A stretch of DNA of 24,417 nucleotides from a virus: positions 1 to 24,417 of IMG/VR virus record IMGVR_UViG_3300044237_000353. One strand, written 5' to 3'. The notes beneath the pieces are model-generated. The model ran no database searches and had not been told where the DNA came from. It was given only the letters and a program-made list of their open reading frames with translations. The stretch's first letter is position 1, and each line of letters opens with the position of its first letter. Both the position numbers and the translations under genes were made by a program. This document shows, piece after piece, positions 1,272 through 8,621 of the stretch.

Positions 1272-1982
1272 ATGGCACTTCCCGTATTAAATACTCCGAA
1301 GTTTAAACTTAAACTTCCTTCTGATAACAGAGTGGTGAATTTTAGACCTTTTCTCGTAAAAGAAGAGAAAATTCTATTAATTGCAACTGAAACTGGTGAA
1401 CAAGCAGAATTAATCACTGCTATTAAGAACATTATTAAAGCATGCACCGATATTAAAGATGTTGAGCATTTATCAACCTTTGATATTGAATACGTTTTCT
1501 TACAGATCAGAACCAAGTCTGTTGGTGAATCTGTAGAAGTAAATGTGACATGCCCTGATGATGGTGAAACACAAGTTCCTGTTTCCATTCCTTTAGACCA
1601 AATTAAAATTCACAAGACTAAAGGTCATAAAAAGGAAATTAAATTATCTGAAGAAATTGTTCTTACCATGAAATATCCAAGTTTGGATGTTTTTGTAGAA
1701 ATGAATTTCCAAGAAAATGAAGGTGGAGTTGATCAAGTCTTTAAAATGGCAGCTGGGTGTATCGAATCTATTGCAGATACAGAACAGGTATATGAGTGTA
1801 AAGACTTACCAAAAGAGGAGCTTAATGCATTTCTAGATCAAATGACTTCTGATCAGTTTAAGAAAGTGCAAGATTTCTTTGAAAGTATGCCAAAACTACA
1901 GCATACATTGAAAGTGACTAATCCTAACACAAAAGTTGAGAGTGAAGTAAAACTTGAAGGACTAGCGAGTTTTTTCGCATAG
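1272..1982 (+). CDS. 26: Baseplate hub/assembly protein, T4 gp26-like
   Basis: The protein has 236 residues (T4 gp26 has 208). Its recognisable features are the opening MALPVLNTPKFKLKLPS, the 'FRPFLVKEEKILLIA' segment (about residues 26-40), and the 'VNVTCPDDGETQVPVSIPLDQI' region (about 97-118). This is the layout of the T4_baseplate (gp26) family. In T4, gp26 is needed for baseplate hub assembly and is not abundant in the virion. The ATG at 1272 is the first in frame and follows the late promoter at 1242. The last sense codons read AGT TTT TTC GCA before TAG, a perfect -1 slippery heptamer. Some ribosomes may therefore bypass the stop and make a roughly 300-residue product including the 61-codon ORF that follows. 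This would make gp26 the counterpart of a lambda G-type tail chaperone, which is an inference. Confidence 0.75.
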   Translation: MALPVLNTPKFKLKLPSDNRVVNFRPFLVKEEKILLIATETGEQAELITAIKNIIKACTDIKDVEHLSTFDIEYVFLQIRTKSVGESVEVNVTCPDDGETQVPVSIPLDQIKIHKTKGHKKEIKLSEEIVLTMKYPSLDVFVEMNFQENEGGVDQVFKMAAGCIESIADTEQVYECKDLPKEELNAFLDQMTSDQFKKVQDFFESMPKLQHTLKVTNPNTKVESEVKLEGLASFFA

Positions 1983-2006
1983 CCCTGATGCACGCTGATT
2001 TGCGTG
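1970..2006 (+). promoter_or_regulatory. Candidate -1 programmed ribosomal frameshift site
   Basis: The heptamer T TTT TTC occupies 1970-1976, in the correct register for the gp26-like frame (X XXY YYZ, zero-frame codons TTT 1971-1973 and TTC 1974-1976). The zero-frame stop follows two codons later (1980-1982). A -1 slip gives CGC ATA GCC CTG and then runs into the ORF at 1988 without a stop. Downstream, CACGC (1991-1995) pairs with GCGTG (2002-2006) around a six-base loop. The stem begins 14 bases after the heptamer, longer than the usual 5-9, so its stimulatory role is uncertain. Confidence 0.6.
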
Positions 2007-2173
2007 GTTATTATGAAACTAATTTTGCATTAATTCATCATCATAAGTGGCAAATTGAGCATATTGAAAATTTGCTGCCTTGGGAAAAAGAGATCTACAT
2101 GAATTTGTTAATACAATTTCTCGAAGAAGAGAATCAACGAATGAAGGATCAACAGTCTAAGTCTAGTGGCTAA
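1988..2173 (+). CDS. Small tail assembly protein, probable -1 frameshift extension of gp26-like protein
   Basis: This 61-codon ORF begins at ATG 1988, five bases after the gp26-like stop and in its -1 frame. No Shine-Dalgarno-like sequence precedes the ATG (the upstream bases are TTTTTTCGCATAGCCCTG). Independent initiation therefore looks poor, and frameshift expression from 1970-1976 looks better. The product is rich in His, Glu and aromatic residues (HHHKWQIEHIENLLPWEKEI) and looks helical, with a polar tail. Its position between gp26 and the tape measure matches the T part of G/GT chaperones and the T4 gp51 slot, but at 61 residues it is far shorter than T4 gp51 (about 249) and I see no direct similarity. 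The stop overlaps the next gene's GTG start. Confidence 0.6.
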   Translation: MHADLRGYYETNFALIHHHKWQIEHIENLLPWEKEIYMNLLIQFLEEENQRMKDQQSKSSG

Positions 2174-5100
2174 AATTTCAATGTACAAGTTCATTAATCC
2201 AGGTAGTGCTGCCTCGACAGCAACTGCCTCGAATGAAGCAGCTCGTACAACACTTTTAGCAACCAATAGACTAGGTGGTTCAATATCTGGACTTTCAAAA
2301 ACTGTTAATAACCTTGAAAAGATATACAAAGCAAGTGCAAAGAACGAAAAACTTGTAGAAATAGCAGAACGCAGAAGAAAGAAAAGAGAGCAAGATAGAC
2401 TTAGAGAAGAAGAGATAGAAAGTCAAAAATTAATGGATGGTAAGGATCTTGAGAAACAGGCAAAAGACGCAAATAGTACAAAAGGAAAATTTGGTAGTAA
2501 ATTAAAAGATACACTTTTAGGTGGTTTCCAGAGGATATTAACATCTATTATCGCTTTCTTATTAAAACTGTTTGCATTAAAAGAGTTAAAAAATTTAGAA
2601 GCATGGTTTAATGATAAAGCTGCACAGGAAAGAAGAAAAGAATTTGTAGAAAATTTTAAATATGTCTTTGAGACATTTCTTAAATGGGGAAAAAGATTAG
2701 TCGTTGATGGTATAGCTAAACCTTTTAATCAATTAGTAAATGGAAAGACTTTTGGAGACAAATTAGCAGGACTAGGTAAACTCGTACTAGGTTTAGCAGG
2801 TTTAACTGTATTATTAAATCCATTTGGGACTATGGATGCTATTCTCAGTCTTTTGGGAATGGATTTTTATCGTGACAGAACTCAAGAAGGTAAAAATAAA
2901 GGAAAAGATAACAAAGGTAGAACTTCTCCAAATAAAAATAAACTTAAAAATACTAGATTAAATCAAAGAAAAGATCTACTTACGAAACAATTTGGAAAAA
3001 ATGGTAGAACTGCATATGATGGATTTAGAGCACAAGGTGATACTCATGCAGAAGCACTAAAAAAAGTAGAGAGATTACAACGTCAAAGACCAGATAAATT
3101 TAAACCTAAAGTTCAACCTAAGACATCAGGTTTAAGTCCTTCGGGAGCAAAAACAGGTATTGCTACCAAGTATGGAATGAAGAGAACCTTTGGTCGTGGT
3201 GCTTTAAAATTTATGGGGAAGAATAATGTAAAACTTCTCGGCAAAGCATTTCAAAATACTTTTGGAAAAATACCTATTTTTGGAACTCTACTAACAGCAG
3301 TATTTTCAAGATTACAGGGAGATCCTTGGGGAGCAACGATATTCAAGACTGCGGGTGCAGCAGTCGGTGGTGGACTAGGAACATGGTTATTACCAGGTAT
3401 TGGTAGTTGGATTGGTACTATGGTTGGTGAATACGTAGGTAATTTACTATATCTCGGATTCCAAGGTGGAGAAGGTGGAACTCAAAACTGGAAAGCAGCT
3501 GGTAAAAAATTAAAGGAAGATGCTGCTGCGTTTATAGGACAATTGAAGAATATATTGGGCTGGATGAAGGAGAGAGTCACCATATTTTATAAAGGCATAC
3601 CAAAGATAAAAATACCAGATTTTCCTAAAGATCCTCCTAATTGGATACCACCTCTCGGTTTTGGATTGAGAGAGAAGATATATGGTGGTGCTAAAATTGC
3701 TATAAAAGCAATGCTAGGTCCTATAGGATTCTTAATGGGTAAAGAAGTCCCGAACATTGCTTGGTTTATGGATGGTTTCGGATTTAAGAATACTCTACCA
3801 TTACTTCACAAATCATTCTTTAAATCTGATCCTGTTTCTGAAGGAGAAAAGACCGAAGGTCAGGCAATGGTTGGTGTTGCAAGTAAAGAGGAAAAAGAGG
3901 CAGGTGATAGTACATCAGGAACAAAGAAACTCAAACCTTCTCCGAAAGAAGGACAGAGTTATGATACAATGCCTTTTGTACCTGCTGAAGATTATAAAGG
4001 TGTAGAATCTGACAATGAAAGATATGGTGATACAATGCCCGAAGGTGCTTTTGGCATTAAGAAAAAGAGGTTAAGTCCATATGAAAGAAAATTTGGTAAG
4101 AAACATAATCCCCTATCAACTGTAAAAGATAGAGGATTGTCCTATGAGACAATGCCTTTTATACCTATGAACAAGTACTTAGGTGTAGAAACAGATAACG
4201 AAAGGTATGGTGATACATTCCCAGAAGGATCATTTAGTATCACTCCTAAAGAAAAGAAGAAAGAATATATAAGTCCATATGAAAGAAAGCATGGTAAGAA
4301 ACATAACCCATTAGAGGGTATAGATTTTGGATCTTCCTATAAGACAAAACCTTTTGTACCTGAGGAAGAAAATAAAGGTGTAGAGTCAGACAACGAAAGA
4401 TATGGAGACACAATGCCAGAGGGTGCCTTTGGTATTGGATCTAAGAAGACAGATACAGCAAAGAAGAAAAAACCTTGGTGGAAGTTTGGATTTGAAGAGG
4501 GTGGATATAGACCACCAGAATACCTTTTTGGATTTGTTAAAAGGATATTTAAAGGTGTCACTAATGTTGTAAAAGGTGTTGTTAATACTGTAACTAACGT
4601 TGTAGGTTCTATAGCAAAGGTTGCTATGCCTATCTTAAGTGTAGCAGCACCATTTATCCCTGCATTAGCACCAATTATGCCATTCATGCAAGCAGCGAAT
4701 GCTGTATCTGCATTTGCGTCTGGTGATATCATGGGAGGTATCACTGGTGGTCTAGGTGCATTAGGTGGATTCTTCCCTAAAACTTTTGGTGCTGATTCTG
4801 CCTTTGGTAATTTCATGTCTAATAATCCATTTGGTAAAGCAATAGGTGGATTTATGACTGGTGGTATATCTGGTGCTCTAGGTAGTCTTACCAGTTTCTT
4901 ACCTCAAGGTTTCCAAGACTTCTTAGGTGGTATTGGTGGATTTATGAATAAATTTCCTGGAATAGGAGGTATAATAAGTGGAATACCTGGTTTAGGTGGT
5001 ATATTAGGATCATTCGGAGTGACAGGTATGGATGGTGCAGGATTCTCTCCATTGAGTTTGTTTGGTGATGTAGCAGAGAGAATGGGATTTGGTGGTATAT

Positions 5101-5372
5101 TTAAGACAGTGACTGGTATGATATCAGGTGGTGGACCTAATGCTATTATGGAGGGTATTCGAGGTATGGCACCTGAATTAGGTGTTAAACCTGAGGCATT
5201 GGGTATATTTACTAATAGAGGTACAAACTCACGTAGTAATCACTTAGATAGTAAATCAAATTCAATGTCAAAAGCATATGCGATGCAATCTCAGTTAGAG
5301 TTTATTCCTATGCCTATGATTATTGAGAAATTGACTCCTATTAAAGTAGCAGTTCCTGTTGGAGGGCAATAA
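2166..5372 (+). CDS. Tape-measure-like tail protein 1
   Basis: This is a 1068-residue protein. The GTG start at 2166 overlaps the previous ORF by 8 bases. It is preferred over ATG 2181 because the resulting AKISMYKF aligns with TKINIYKF in the next gene. Visible parts, in order: a Lys/Arg/Glu-rich coiled-coil-like stretch (about 55-100); hydrophobic helices (about 120-145 and 200-235); a basic linker (about 245-330); Gly-rich hydrophobic segments (about 370-425); an internal repeat (about 598-757); a long Gly/Phe/Ile-rich region (about 790-1000); and a polar tail ending in a hydrophobic stretch (EFIPMPMIIEKLTPIKVAVP). Great length, helices and Gly-rich hydrophobic segments directly after a chaperone-like pair are typical of tape measures. 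T4 gp29 is only 590 residues. I do not see residue-level similarity to gp29, so the role is inferred from position and composition. Confidence 0.6.
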   Translation: MAKISMYKFINPGSAASTATASNEAARTTLLATNRLGGSISGLSKTVNNLEKIYKASAKNEKLVEIAERRRKKREQDRLREEEIESQKLMDGKDLEKQAKDANSTKGKFGSKLKDTLLGGFQRILTSIIAFLLKLFALKELKNLEAWFNDKAAQERRKEFVENFKYVFETFLKWGKRLVVDGIAKPFNQLVNGKTFGDKLAGLGKLVLGLAGLTVLLNPFGTMDAILSLLGMDFYRDRTQEGKNKGKDNKGRTSPNKNKLKNTRLNQRKDLLTKQFGKNGRTAYDGFRAQGDTHAEALKKVERLQRQRPDKFKPKVQPKTSGLSPSGAKTGIATKYGMKRTFGRGALKFMGKNNVKLLGKAFQNTFGKIPIFGTLLTAVFSRLQGDPWGATIFKTAGAAVGGGLGTWLLPGIGSWIGTMVGEYVGNLLYLGFQGGEGGTQNWKAAGKKLKEDAAAFIGQLKNILGWMKERVTIFYKGIPKIKIPDFPKDPPNWIPPLGFGLREKIYGGAKIAIKAMLGPIGFLMGKEVPNIAWFMDGFGFKNTLPLLHKSFFKSDPVSEGEKTEGQAMVGVASKEEKEAGDSTSGTKKLKPSPKEGQSYDTMPFVPAEDYKGVESDNERYGDTMPEGAFGIKKKRLSPYERKFGKKHNPLSTVKDRGLSYETMPFIPMNKYLGVETDNERYGDTFPEGSFSITPKEKKKEYISPYERKHGKKHNPLEGIDFGSSYKTKPFVPEEENKGVESDNERYGDTMPEGAFGIGSKKTDTAKKKKPWWKFGFEEGGYRPPEYLFGFVKRIFKGVTNVVKGVVNTVTNVVGSIAKVAMPILSVAAPFIPALAPIMPFMQAANAVSAFASGDIMGGITGGLGALGGFFPKTFGADSAFGNFMSNNPFGKAIGGFMTGGISGALGSLTSFLPQGFQDFLGGIGGFMNKFPGIGGIISGIPGLGGILGSFGVTGMDGAGFSPLSLFGDVAERMGFGGIFKTVTGMISGGGPNAIMEGIRGMAPELGVKPEALGIFTNRGTNSRSNHLDSKSNSMSKAYAMQSQLEFIPMPMIIEKLTPIKVAVPVGGQ
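3957..4436 (+). repeat. In-frame tandem repeat within tape-measure-like protein 1
   Basis: Two and a half copies of a 61-65-residue unit begin at residues 598, 659 and 724. Each starts SY-x-T-x-PF-x-P, continues with GVE-x-DNERYGDT-x-PEG-x-F, and in the first two copies ends SPYERK-x-GKKHNPL. The third copy lacks the SPYERK half and runs into a Lys-rich linker. The DNA copies differ at many third positions, so the duplication is old and the protein sequence is conserved. The function is unknown. Confidence 0.85.
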
Positions 5373-5381: not shown

Positions 5382-8300
5382 ATGAACGTCTCACCAACCA
5401 AAATTAATATTTACAAGTTTGTCTCCACAACAGGGATAGCTGCGGCTAGTGATGCAAAGAAACAAGAAAAGGCAACTATAGGTATACAAACAAAACAAGT
5501 TGAAGCAATAAACCAACTTGGTGGAGTAGTTAATGGTATAGCAGGGAGTCTTGTTAAGATAGAAGCGATAGAAATAGCACGTGCAAAAGCACTAGCAAAG
5601 AAATCAACAGAATTTGAACCAGAATATACAGAAGTCAAAAAACAAAAATTTACATTTGTAGGAAAATTATTAGAAGCATTTAAAGCACCTAATTTCCTAA
5701 AAGGTTTGTTGCAGATGCTTGGTGCTCTCTTCAAAATGTTAATTGGAGTACCTGTCTTGAAATGGTTGGCAGATGAGAAAAATCAAAAAAAGATAGTAAA
5801 TACGTTTAAAATAATATATGGAGTATTCAAGGCAATTAGTTCGTTTATTGCTAGTGCTTTTGTTACAGGTATCAATAGTCTTGCAAAAGCATTGAGGGGT
5901 GGTGAAAATATGAGCACTTGGCAAAGAGTGCTTGCGTTTGCCAAGGGTATAGTAGCGTTTGGTGCCATAGTTGTAGGACTTAAGTGGTTAAATCCTCTTA
6001 GGATAGGTAAAACTATGAAGGAGATCGGTATGATCTTCAAAGGTTTTAATAATGCACTGTTTAATTTTAGAAACGCACTAAGAGCAAGAAGAGGTTTAAA
6101 AGCACTTAAACATGGAGGAGGACTAGGAGGTTCAAAATTCTTACGCAGAGCACCAGGATTTACAAAAGGTGCATTAATCACTGGTGGTATACTCACTGTA
6201 GGTTCTATGGTGATGGGTGGTGATGCTGAGGCAGCAGAAGAGGGAGGAGAAGAAGAAGGAGGAGAAGAAGTCCCAGAAAGAAAAATGGGAGGACCTATAG
6301 GTAAGGCAAATATAGGAAGAATTGTACCACAGCAGGGTGGTCTGATTAGAGGTCCTGATACTGGTTATCCAGTTTCAATGGATGGAGGTAAAAGTACATC
6401 ATTCATTGGTCATGGTACTGAAAAAGTCGTAGGTGACAAAAAGGGTGGTGGATATGTAATACCTATCAATAATGCTGCAACAAGAGCAAATCCATATTTA
6501 ACAGCTTATAATGAAGCAGCAGCTGCAGGTTTGGGTATGTCAGGTGCAATGCCTCCTGAGATGTTCATAGGTGGTTTATTTAAAGGTGCAGGTAATCTAT
6601 TAAAAGGTAGAACTTGGGGTGGTGCTCAAAGGATGGGTACTCAAGCAAACTTTGGAACAGGTAGAGATGGTGGATTTGGAACTGGTACGCATGGTAGTGG
6701 ATGGCCAAGTGCATGGGATGGTAAACCAGTAGGAGGACAAACTAACTCACCAACTAAGAAACCTGGTTTATGGGGTCAGATCGGAAACTTCTTGACTAAG
6801 GGTGATGGTCAAACCAGTGGTGCTGCTATGATAGGTAGGATGTTTGGTAATGAGCAAGCTGGTGCTTCGATTGGTAATATCATGGGTATATTCCAAGGTG
6901 GTGGTAGTGGTGAAAATGGTAAGGCAACTGGTTGGGATATCATAAAAGGTATTGGTGGTGTTGCAGGTAATTTCTTAGGTGGATCTAAGGCAGGTGGTTG
7001 GATCAATACTGCAATGGGAATAGGTGACATATTAAAAGGAGACGGAAACTGGGCATCTAAATTTAGAGATATTGCAGGAAACTTTGGTGGTACAATAGCA
7101 GATCTAATTGGTGGTAAGACAGGAGCTGCTATTGGTGGTTTCATGAACTCATACTTCAATGGAACTGCAGGTAGTATTGGAGAAATGATAAGTGGCATGG
7201 GAACACAGGCAGGTACAGGTCGTATCGCAGATGCTGCTAATCATCCTGGTTACTCTGGTGGAATGGGTGTCACTGATCCAGATGGAGGTATAAAAGCTGC
7301 TAAGATCCTTGGTAGACAAATGTTGAGTAGAGGAATGACAGTATATGGTCATCCTAATTTTAAAAATAATAAATTCTCAAAAGAAAATGCTGCAAATGAA
7401 AAAGGATATGATCCTAGTGGAAGACAACCTGTAGGTGGAGGACCTTTCCACTCTCAAGGATTGGGATTAAACATTGCTGACTATAGATCAGGTGATTATG
7501 GTGCAAGATTAAGAAACCTTGCTGACTTCTTAAGAGGTCAGATTGATACATTTAAGATTGTACAAGTTATATACGATAAGTGGGGTATGTGGTTTGCAGG
7601 TCAGAAAGAAAAGAAAGGACCTTCTAAGTATGGATATCCAGATTCTATTGGTGTTGGAGTTGCTCCTAAAACACCTGAAGAAACTACAGGTGTAGGTTCA
7701 CAACAGGCAGTAGCAAATAGTCAAAGGACTATAATGAAGAATGCACTAGAAGGTGGTGATGGATCTGTAGGTGATGCTGCATTAAACATTAGGAAGGTAT
7801 TAAATCAAGCAGATGCTGCAGATAAAGGTGCAAAAAAATCTGATTTTGGTGGTAATTTCTTTATGGATTTACTTAGCAAAGGAGAGAACACTAAAATTAG
7901 TGATGCTTTTATGAAATCTAGTGATCAGAAGAAAGGTTTAGATGCCTTTGCATTAGCACAAGATAATGAAGGACTAACTAACTTCTTATACAAAAAAGGT
8001 GCAAACGAAGAACAGGCAACTAACTATATGAATTTAATTGATGGTGACCTGTTTACAAAAACTCCTCTGTTTAATAATGATGATAAATTCTCTTTCTCAA
8101 CTAACTTTAAGATTGGTAATAGTTTATATACTAAAGATGATGGTAAATCTGCTACAGATTTTTATGCTAAGAAAAATATGGGTATCACAGACAGTGAGGC
8201 TACCCAGAGAAAGAATAATCAACAGGAAAGAAATAGAGGTGTAGCATTCTCAACTAGCAAAAAAGATGGTGAAAGTTTAATATCTAAAGCACCTAAGACT

Positions 8301-8621
8301 CAATCTCCTGTAAGTCAAGCACAAGGTGCAGGATCAAATACTAACTCTGATGATAAACAAAGAGATTACTACAATAAAAAAGCAGCAAAGGAGAGAGTTC
8401 ATGCTACTAATGCTATGCATGAAAAGATTCAAGTAACTATTCAAACAGCATTAGCAGCAGTTCAAGCACATAATAGTGGAGTTCAAGCAACGGTTAAGTC
8501 TGAGAACCAAAAAGTTCTTCAGATGCAGAAAGCTGCTAGATCAATGGTAGAAAAAGTAAAAGCTCAGAATAAACGAGGTTCTGGTGCTAGAGGAAACCAA
8601 AACCAATCTGTCATGGGTTAA
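5382..8621 (+). CDS. Tape-measure-like tail protein 2 with degenerate M15-like peptidase motif
   Basis: This 1079-residue protein is a paralogue of the preceding one. The N-termini share I-x-x-YKF, an Ala/Thr-rich helix and N-x-LGG-x-x-x-G, followed by hydrophobic helices (about 105-165) with Lys-rich flanks. The middle (about 400-620) is Gly/Ile/Phe-rich. Around residues 620-720 a different domain appears, with HPNF (His657), then FHSQGLGLNIAD (His690 to Asp700). This resembles the H-x-x-G-x-A-x-D signature of M15/D-Ala-D-Ala carboxypeptidase-like domains, but Asn697 replaces the metal-binding Asp and no second E-x-W-H motif is obvious. The C-terminus (about 970-1079) is Lys/Gln-rich, probably coiled coil. 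It could be a second tape measure or an inner-tail protein. The role is inferred from paralogy and its place before the gp27-like gene. Confidence 0.55.
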   Translation: MNVSPTKINIYKFVSTTGIAAASDAKKQEKATIGIQTKQVEAINQLGGVVNGIAGSLVKIEAIEIARAKALAKKSTEFEPEYTEVKKQKFTFVGKLLEAFKAPNFLKGLLQMLGALFKMLIGVPVLKWLADEKNQKKIVNTFKIIYGVFKAISSFIASAFVTGINSLAKALRGGENMSTWQRVLAFAKGIVAFGAIVVGLKWLNPLRIGKTMKEIGMIFKGFNNALFNFRNALRARRGLKALKHGGGLGGSKFLRRAPGFTKGALITGGILTVGSMVMGGDAEAAEEGGEEEGGEEVPERKMGGPIGKANIGRIVPQQGGLIRGPDTGYPVSMDGGKSTSFIGHGTEKVVGDKKGGGYVIPINNAATRANPYLTAYNEAAAAGLGMSGAMPPEMFIGGLFKGAGNLLKGRTWGGAQRMGTQANFGTGRDGGFGTGTHGSGWPSAWDGKPVGGQTNSPTKKPGLWGQIGNFLTKGDGQTSGAAMIGRMFGNEQAGASIGNIMGIFQGGGSGENGKATGWDIIKGIGGVAGNFLGGSKAGGWINTAMGIGDILKGDGNWASKFRDIAGNFGGTIADLIGGKTGAAIGGFMNSYFNGTAGSIGEMISGMGTQAGTGRIADAANHPGYSGGMGVTDPDGGIKAAKILGRQMLSRGMTVYGHPNFKNNKFSKENAANEKGYDPSGRQPVGGGPFHSQGLGLNIADYRSGDYGARLRNLADFLRGQIDTFKIVQVIYDKWGMWFAGQKEKKGPSKYGYPDSIGVGVAPKTPEETTGVGSQQAVANSQRTIMKNALEGGDGSVGDAALNIRKVLNQADAADKGAKKSDFGGNFFMDLLSKGENTKISDAFMKSSDQKKGLDAFALAQDNEGLTNFLYKKGANEEQATNYMNLIDGDLFTKTPLFNNDDKFSFSTNFKIGNSLYTKDDGKSATDFYAKKNMGITDSEATQRKNNQQERNRGVAFSTSKKDGESLISKAPKTQSPVSQAQGAGSNTNSDDKQRDYYNKKAAKERVHATNAMHEKIQVTIQTALAAVQAHNSGVQATVKSENQKVLQMQKAARSMVEKVKAQNKRGSGARGNQNQSVMG

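Follow-up and report, generated by a model that had tools for sequence, protein, structure and literature searches.

The closest described systems to the locus treated here are the tail assembly chaperone genes of long-tailed phages. Xu, Hendrix and Duda reportedly described a conserved frameshift in such genes in 2004, and in the G/GT pair of phage lambda the slippery heptamer is G GGA AAG. The tail assembly chaperones of T4-like phages are said to be the subject of Vladimirov, Gautam and Davidson in Virology 566:9-15, 2022, a paper whose title reportedly mentions a mechanism other than frameshifting. The locus lies in a viral fragment of 24,417 nucleotides (nt) from IMG/VR (record IMGVR_UViG_3300044237_000353, positions 1 to 24,417; the whole stretch is called the window), and it consists of a gp26-like gene and a short open reading frame (ORF) at its 3' end. 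The window belongs to a marine T4-type cyanophage; it is about 95-96% identical in nucleotide sequence to Prochlorococcus phage P-SSM4, and the proteins of gp26 and of the extension are identical. In the P-SSM4 record gp26 and gp51 are two separate genes.

The kind of switch proposed below is already known from the tail genes of other phages and from T4-like phages, and much of it appears, going by a title and a citing paper, to have been published in 2022. A 2025 paper cites Vladimirov et al. for poly-T -1 slip sites in T4-like short-form (TAC-N) genes (PMC12846349). A preliminary description of the window, made from its sequence, was aware of no demonstrated case for a T4-type gp26; according to that citation, slip sites in T4-like phages had already been reported. 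Literature searches by gene name mostly gave no earlier report, and the prior work surfaced through reference lists. The 2025 paper gives the slip motif of the Vandenendeviridae and Andersonviridae tail chaperone as GTTTTT, in different phage families (PMC12846349). Phage 0305phi8-36 has a paralogous two-gene form of G/GT, gp143 and gp144, in which no frameshift was found (PMC2147016). It resembles T4 in that two paralogues replace G/GT, and it is a precedent for the T4 duplication, while the phage group differs.

The gp26-like gene and the small gp51 ORF are very probably one gene that is decoded in two ways by -1 frameshifting, giving a G/GT-like chaperone pair. The features of the locus are the following (aa, amino acids).

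1272..1982, plus strand: gp26-like gene, the short G-like form, 236 aa; Pfam PF12322 (T4_baseplate), E=1e-77, residues 9-236, the whole profile; PHROG 150, E=1e-87
1956..1961, plus strand: GAAGGA, internal Shine-Dalgarno-like sequence, a possible stimulator, 8 nt 5' of the slippery site
1970..1976, plus strand: slippery heptamer T TTT TTC in the gp26 register
1980..1982, plus strand: zero-frame stop TAG, end of the short form
1986..2010, plus strand: candidate stimulatory hairpin with core CACGC / GCGTG (1991-1995 with 2002-2006), part of the 1977-2016 fold
1976..2173, plus strand: -1-frame extension module, annotated in P-SSM4 as the separate gene gp51 from Met 1988; PHROG 634 (gp51), E=3e-30, positions 56-119
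1272..2173, plus strand: predicted long GT-like product, join(1272..1976,1976..2173), 300 aa, deduced from the slip and collinear with T4 gp51 and with the natural in-frame fusion in contig L052
2181..5372, plus strand: next gene, protein of about 1,060 aa, candidate tape measure by position and length

The 3' end of the gp26-like ORF reads GCG AGT (1968-1970) TTT (1971-1973) TTC (1974-1976) GCA (1977-1979) TAG (1980-1982), which puts the heptamer in the X XXY YYZ register. From 1970 onwards the -1 frame has no stop before the TAA at 2171-2173, 65 codons past the slip, and the computed fusion has 300 aa. In these points the preliminary description was right. It had also placed the heptamer two codons before the stop, but a single sense codon (GCA) intervenes. 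The predicted fusion junction reads FFRIALMH, and the junction-spanning peptide is ...LASFFRIALMHADLR. The coding sequences of the window contain 29 in-register X XXY YYZ sites among 7,720 codons. The site at 1970-1976 is the only one of the 29 that lies within five codons of a stop, and the only one that opens a -1 frame of at least 50 codons.

The heptamer is conserved in nearly all of the relatives compared. Two samples of 80 contigs were used, one selected by gp26 similarity and the other on the downstream module alone, with some contigs common to both; the sequences share ancestry, and the p-values below are guides only. T TTT TTC is found in register near the stop in 79 of the 80 gp26-selected contigs. 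All 80 module-selected contigs have a heptamer (TTTTTTC in 71, TTTTTTA in five, and TTTTTTT in four). It falls exactly where homology of the module begins, and the preceding codon always ends in T. TTTTTTN is also present in the distant phages KVP40, phiM7 (TTTTTTT), RHph_I34 (TTTTTTG), and HTVC008M (TTTTTTT), and further carriers are Aeromonas avDM12, Stenotrophomonas BUCT608, Desulfovibrio 7757, Ochrobactrum ORM_20, and Synechococcus BUCT-ZZ01. With KVP40 gp26 as the query only two contigs were reached. Judged from these sequences, a chance origin of the slip site is ruled out by its conservation.

The exception among the gp26-selected contigs is L052 (L052:2501-3394; IMGVR_UViG_3300049043_000112), in which a 2-nt difference puts gp26 and the extension in one frame. 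Such a fusion would fit the view that decay or missequencing of a once in-frame fusion produced the -1 frame, a view that has practically no chance of being correct and is refuted by conservation. Of the 80 independently sequenced contigs of the module-selected sample, 73 have the zero-frame stop 2-4 codons past the slip and 7 have it 10 codons past, and the module is conserved as a protein across phages of many different hosts. The slip site of L052 reads TCT TTT TGG TTA GGA ATG in a gp26-extension fusion whose adjoining ORFs look intact, and a sequencing error may be involved. The contigs with the stop 10 rather than 3 codons past the slip (L157, L161, L172, L179, L186, L195, and L206) keep the heptamer and have a longer short-form tail.

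The codons of the heptamer carry the signature expected of a slippery site. Codon usage was compared in 61 gp26 genes that are less than 85% identical in nucleotide sequence, over 238 codon columns. The third base is invariant despite synonymous freedom in only three columns, which are the three heptamer codons, and the other 235 serve as a control for relatedness. The codon before TTT encodes Ser, Ala, Asn, or Asp, and it ends in T in every gene. The second Phe is encoded by TTC in 61 of 61 genes, compared with a TTC usage of 24.5% elsewhere in the gene. Within this alignment, conservation of the heptamer exceeds what the protein requires.

GenBank annotates the downstream ORF as a separate small gene with its start at ATG 1988, which would be expressed by termination-coupled reinitiation. 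Besides the P-SSM4 annotation, this has in its favor an ATG closely after the stop in 45 of the 61 relatives and the sequence TAATG or TGATG at the stop in KVP40, phiM7, RHph_I34, and BUCT608. It is nevertheless very unlikely. None of the 45 early ATGs has a Shine-Dalgarno-like sequence. The 61-codon ORF likewise has none within 20 nt 5' of ATG 1988, in agreement with the earlier remark that it has no ribosome-binding site of its own. In 14 of the 61 lineages the -1 frame contains no ATG, GTG, or TTG, either in the 14 codons that follow the slip or in its open upstream part, and a start codon is missing from the first 14 codons in 50 of the 80 module-selected contigs. In addition, homology of the extension begins at the second slip codon, ahead of Met 1988, and a separate gene leaves the frozen heptamer codons unexplained. 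Because starts are often absent, the early ATGs lack Shine-Dalgarno sequences, and homology begins before Met 1988, independent translation of the module cannot, on this comparison, be the general mechanism. The preliminary description had named as evidence against frameshifting a heptamer that is lost while the downstream start and ribosome-binding site are kept; the reverse is found, with a nearly universal heptamer and a start and ribosome-binding site that are not conserved. As annotated, cyanophage gp51 is very likely the tail of a frameshifted protein and not a gene of its own. The extension is unannotated in the records of several phages (ACG-2014d, avDM12, and ORM_20), which is what one would expect of a module without its own start codon.

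Frameshifting may also be combined with reinitiation. The long product would then come from slippage and some free module from reinitiation, which would be dominant in the heptamer-less relatives of the Ackermannviridae type. Det7, Taipeivirus, the Vibrio phages K476, D494 and 207E48.1, and Pseudomonas Cygsa01 keep the -1-frame module with xTT TTY, and the stop context is TAATG in the Vibrio and Pseudomonas ones and TAATT in Kuttervirus and Taipeivirus. The title of the 2022 paper, which reportedly names a mechanism other than frameshifting, would also be in accord. Overall this combination is unlikely, and because starts are often absent in the P-SSM4 group it can hardly hold generally. For Ackermannviridae a canonical heptamer was considered and was not found in the relatives compared. 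The Ackermannviridae-type contigs (L086, L092, L093, L095, L097, L098, and L101-L115) have the -1-frame extension with xTT TTY and no heptamer. Kuttervirus and Taipeivirus, with TAATT at the stop, have no in-frame ATG, GTG, or TTG at the junction.

Sequences on both sides of the heptamer are candidates for stimulating the slip. A purine-rich word similar to a Shine-Dalgarno sequence is found at -20 to -6 of the heptamer (about 8 nt 5' of it) in 89 of 96 distinct junctions, compared with 1/95, 3/95, and 15/95 in control windows. A conserved Glu-Gly accounts for part of this. Its Glu is encoded by GAG in 53 of the 61 relatives versus 32% elsewhere, while P-SSM4 has GAA, and a comparable GAG bias is seen at just one further conserved Glu column, close to the N-terminus. 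On the 3' side most relatives have a stem of 10 base pairs with a 9-nt loop, beginning 6 nt after the heptamer. The stem covaries (GCT/GAG, GCA/GTG, GCG/GCG, and GTT/GAA): double-change cells number 13, shuffles average 4.2 and none of 500 reaches 13, and slid controls fail. The segment downstream of the heptamer is more structured than both controls, with a mean z of -1.77 versus +0.17 and -0.42 (95 distinct junctions; p=4e-11 and 4e-6). The covarying stem is not conserved in the P-SSM4 clade; P-SSM4 has another hairpin at the corresponding place, which is weak and likewise not conserved in that clade. A conserved RNA structure in that clade was set aside, as RNAalifold gave only a weak one running through the slip site, and an Rfam search of 1800-2300 gave no match.

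The two forms correspond to gp26 and gp51 of T4. Short and long forms share an N-terminal domain, PF12322, and the long form adds the C-terminal extension of PHROG 634. T4 gp26 aligns along its full length with the short form (hhalign E=4e-16), and both finish at the same Phe-Phe. In Pfam, residues 1-201 of T4 gp51 carry the short-form domain, and its residues 200-244 match the extension (hhalign E=2.3e-5). Against T4 gp26 the extension has no hhalign match (E 0.51 over 5 columns). Since T4 gp26 is the short form and gp51 the short form plus the extension, T4 has a separate gene for each form. Genes 26 and 51 of T4 are divergent full-length paralogues with no slip site, and past the end of gene 26 a stop immediately closes the -1 frame. 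The two genes are adjacent and divergently oriented both in T4 and in Aeromonas phiAS4. Going by these sequences, T4 itself does not frameshift, and its G/GT equivalence arises by duplication. The proposal that gp26/gp51 of T4-like phages is the equivalent of lambda G/GT is supported for the probable cyanophage frameshift pair, but T4 itself gets there by gene duplication without a slip. In RB43 (L099:2501-3244) the arrangement differs from that of T4: two genes, of 361 and 287 aa, precede a gp51-like gene on the same strand. According to a 2010 review, T4 gp51 is reportedly essential and of unknown function.

The locus resembles lambda G/GT in having a predicted -1 slip close to the 3' end of a short putative chaperone ORF, an extension in the overlapping frame, and a long tape-measure-like gene downstream. 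It differs in its heptamer, T TTT TTN, and in its protein family, as PF12322 is not detectably related in sequence and the fold match to HK97 gp13 is non-significant. The AlphaFold model of gp26 is confident (pLDDT 86.9), and the extension, modeled in the natural fusion of L052, is helical and less certain. The gp26 fold is matched by predicted viral proteins of the gp26 type. Profiles of gp26 and of the extension, searched against PDB sequences, gave nothing significant, and an NCBIfam search gave no match.

Several points weigh against a frameshifted chaperone pair. In P-SSM4 itself an ATG stands at 1988, and the hairpin is unexceptional (the 1977-2016 fold is -10.4 kcal/mol, z -1.24). The slip site is lost in one contig, L052. 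Foldseek comparison with the PDB is non-significant, with HK97 gp13 (2ob9) at rank 16-17, E 1.3-1.8, and a target-normalized TM score of 0.36-0.42. The tape-measure identity of the gene at 2181..5372 is unproven and rests on position and length.

The ORF directly 3' of the pair is likely the tape measure, given its position and length. The earlier placement of the pair upstream of the tape measure fits in these respects, but the profile search gave no tape-measure match for this protein, and its PHROG 790 match is labelled 'endolysin'. The proteins of 2181-5372 and 5382-8621 (about 1,060-1,080 aa) share PHROG families 790, 1200, and 2588, whose labels ('endolysin' or unknown) are probably wrong for them. 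They look like a paralogous pair, and one of them may be the tape measure. In HTVC008M the protein one gene further downstream is annotated as a putative tape measure and matches tape-measure PHROGs.

From these features we infer slipping at some rate and a chaperone function, and by analogy that gp26/gp26-51 works like lambda G/GT. Most ribosomes would stop at the TAG at 1980-1982 and produce the 236-aa short G-like protein. A fraction would slip back one base while tRNA-Phe is on the two Phe codons of T TTT TTC, probably aided by the purine-rich sequence about 8 nt 5' and, in most relatives, by the stem-loop 6 nt 3'. The slip would produce the 300-aa GT-like fusion, whose C-terminal module is predicted to be helical. 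If lambda is a guide, both proteins, made in a fixed ratio, may chaperone the tape-measure/hub core in tail assembly. Both forms can be tested for directly by mass spectrometry.

Possibly new here are the test for frozen codons, the stem-loop with its covariation, the wide occurrence of the heptamer, and the xTT TTY with TAATG or TAATT that replaces it in Ackermannviridae-type phages. On balance we lean toward the view that one chaperone pair, presumably at a set ratio, is kept by three interchangeable devices in a single virus superfamily. These would be a -1 slip with a covarying stem-loop in cyanophages (without a shown stem in KVP40 and others), duplication with divergent genes in T4 and phiAS4, and stop-overlapping reinitiation of the Ackermannviridae type. 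The T4 'hub assembly catalyst' gp51 would then be the frameshifted long form turned into a gene. The proposed chaperone pair would give T4 gp51 a role and would bring T4-type contractile tails into the assembly scheme of lambda.
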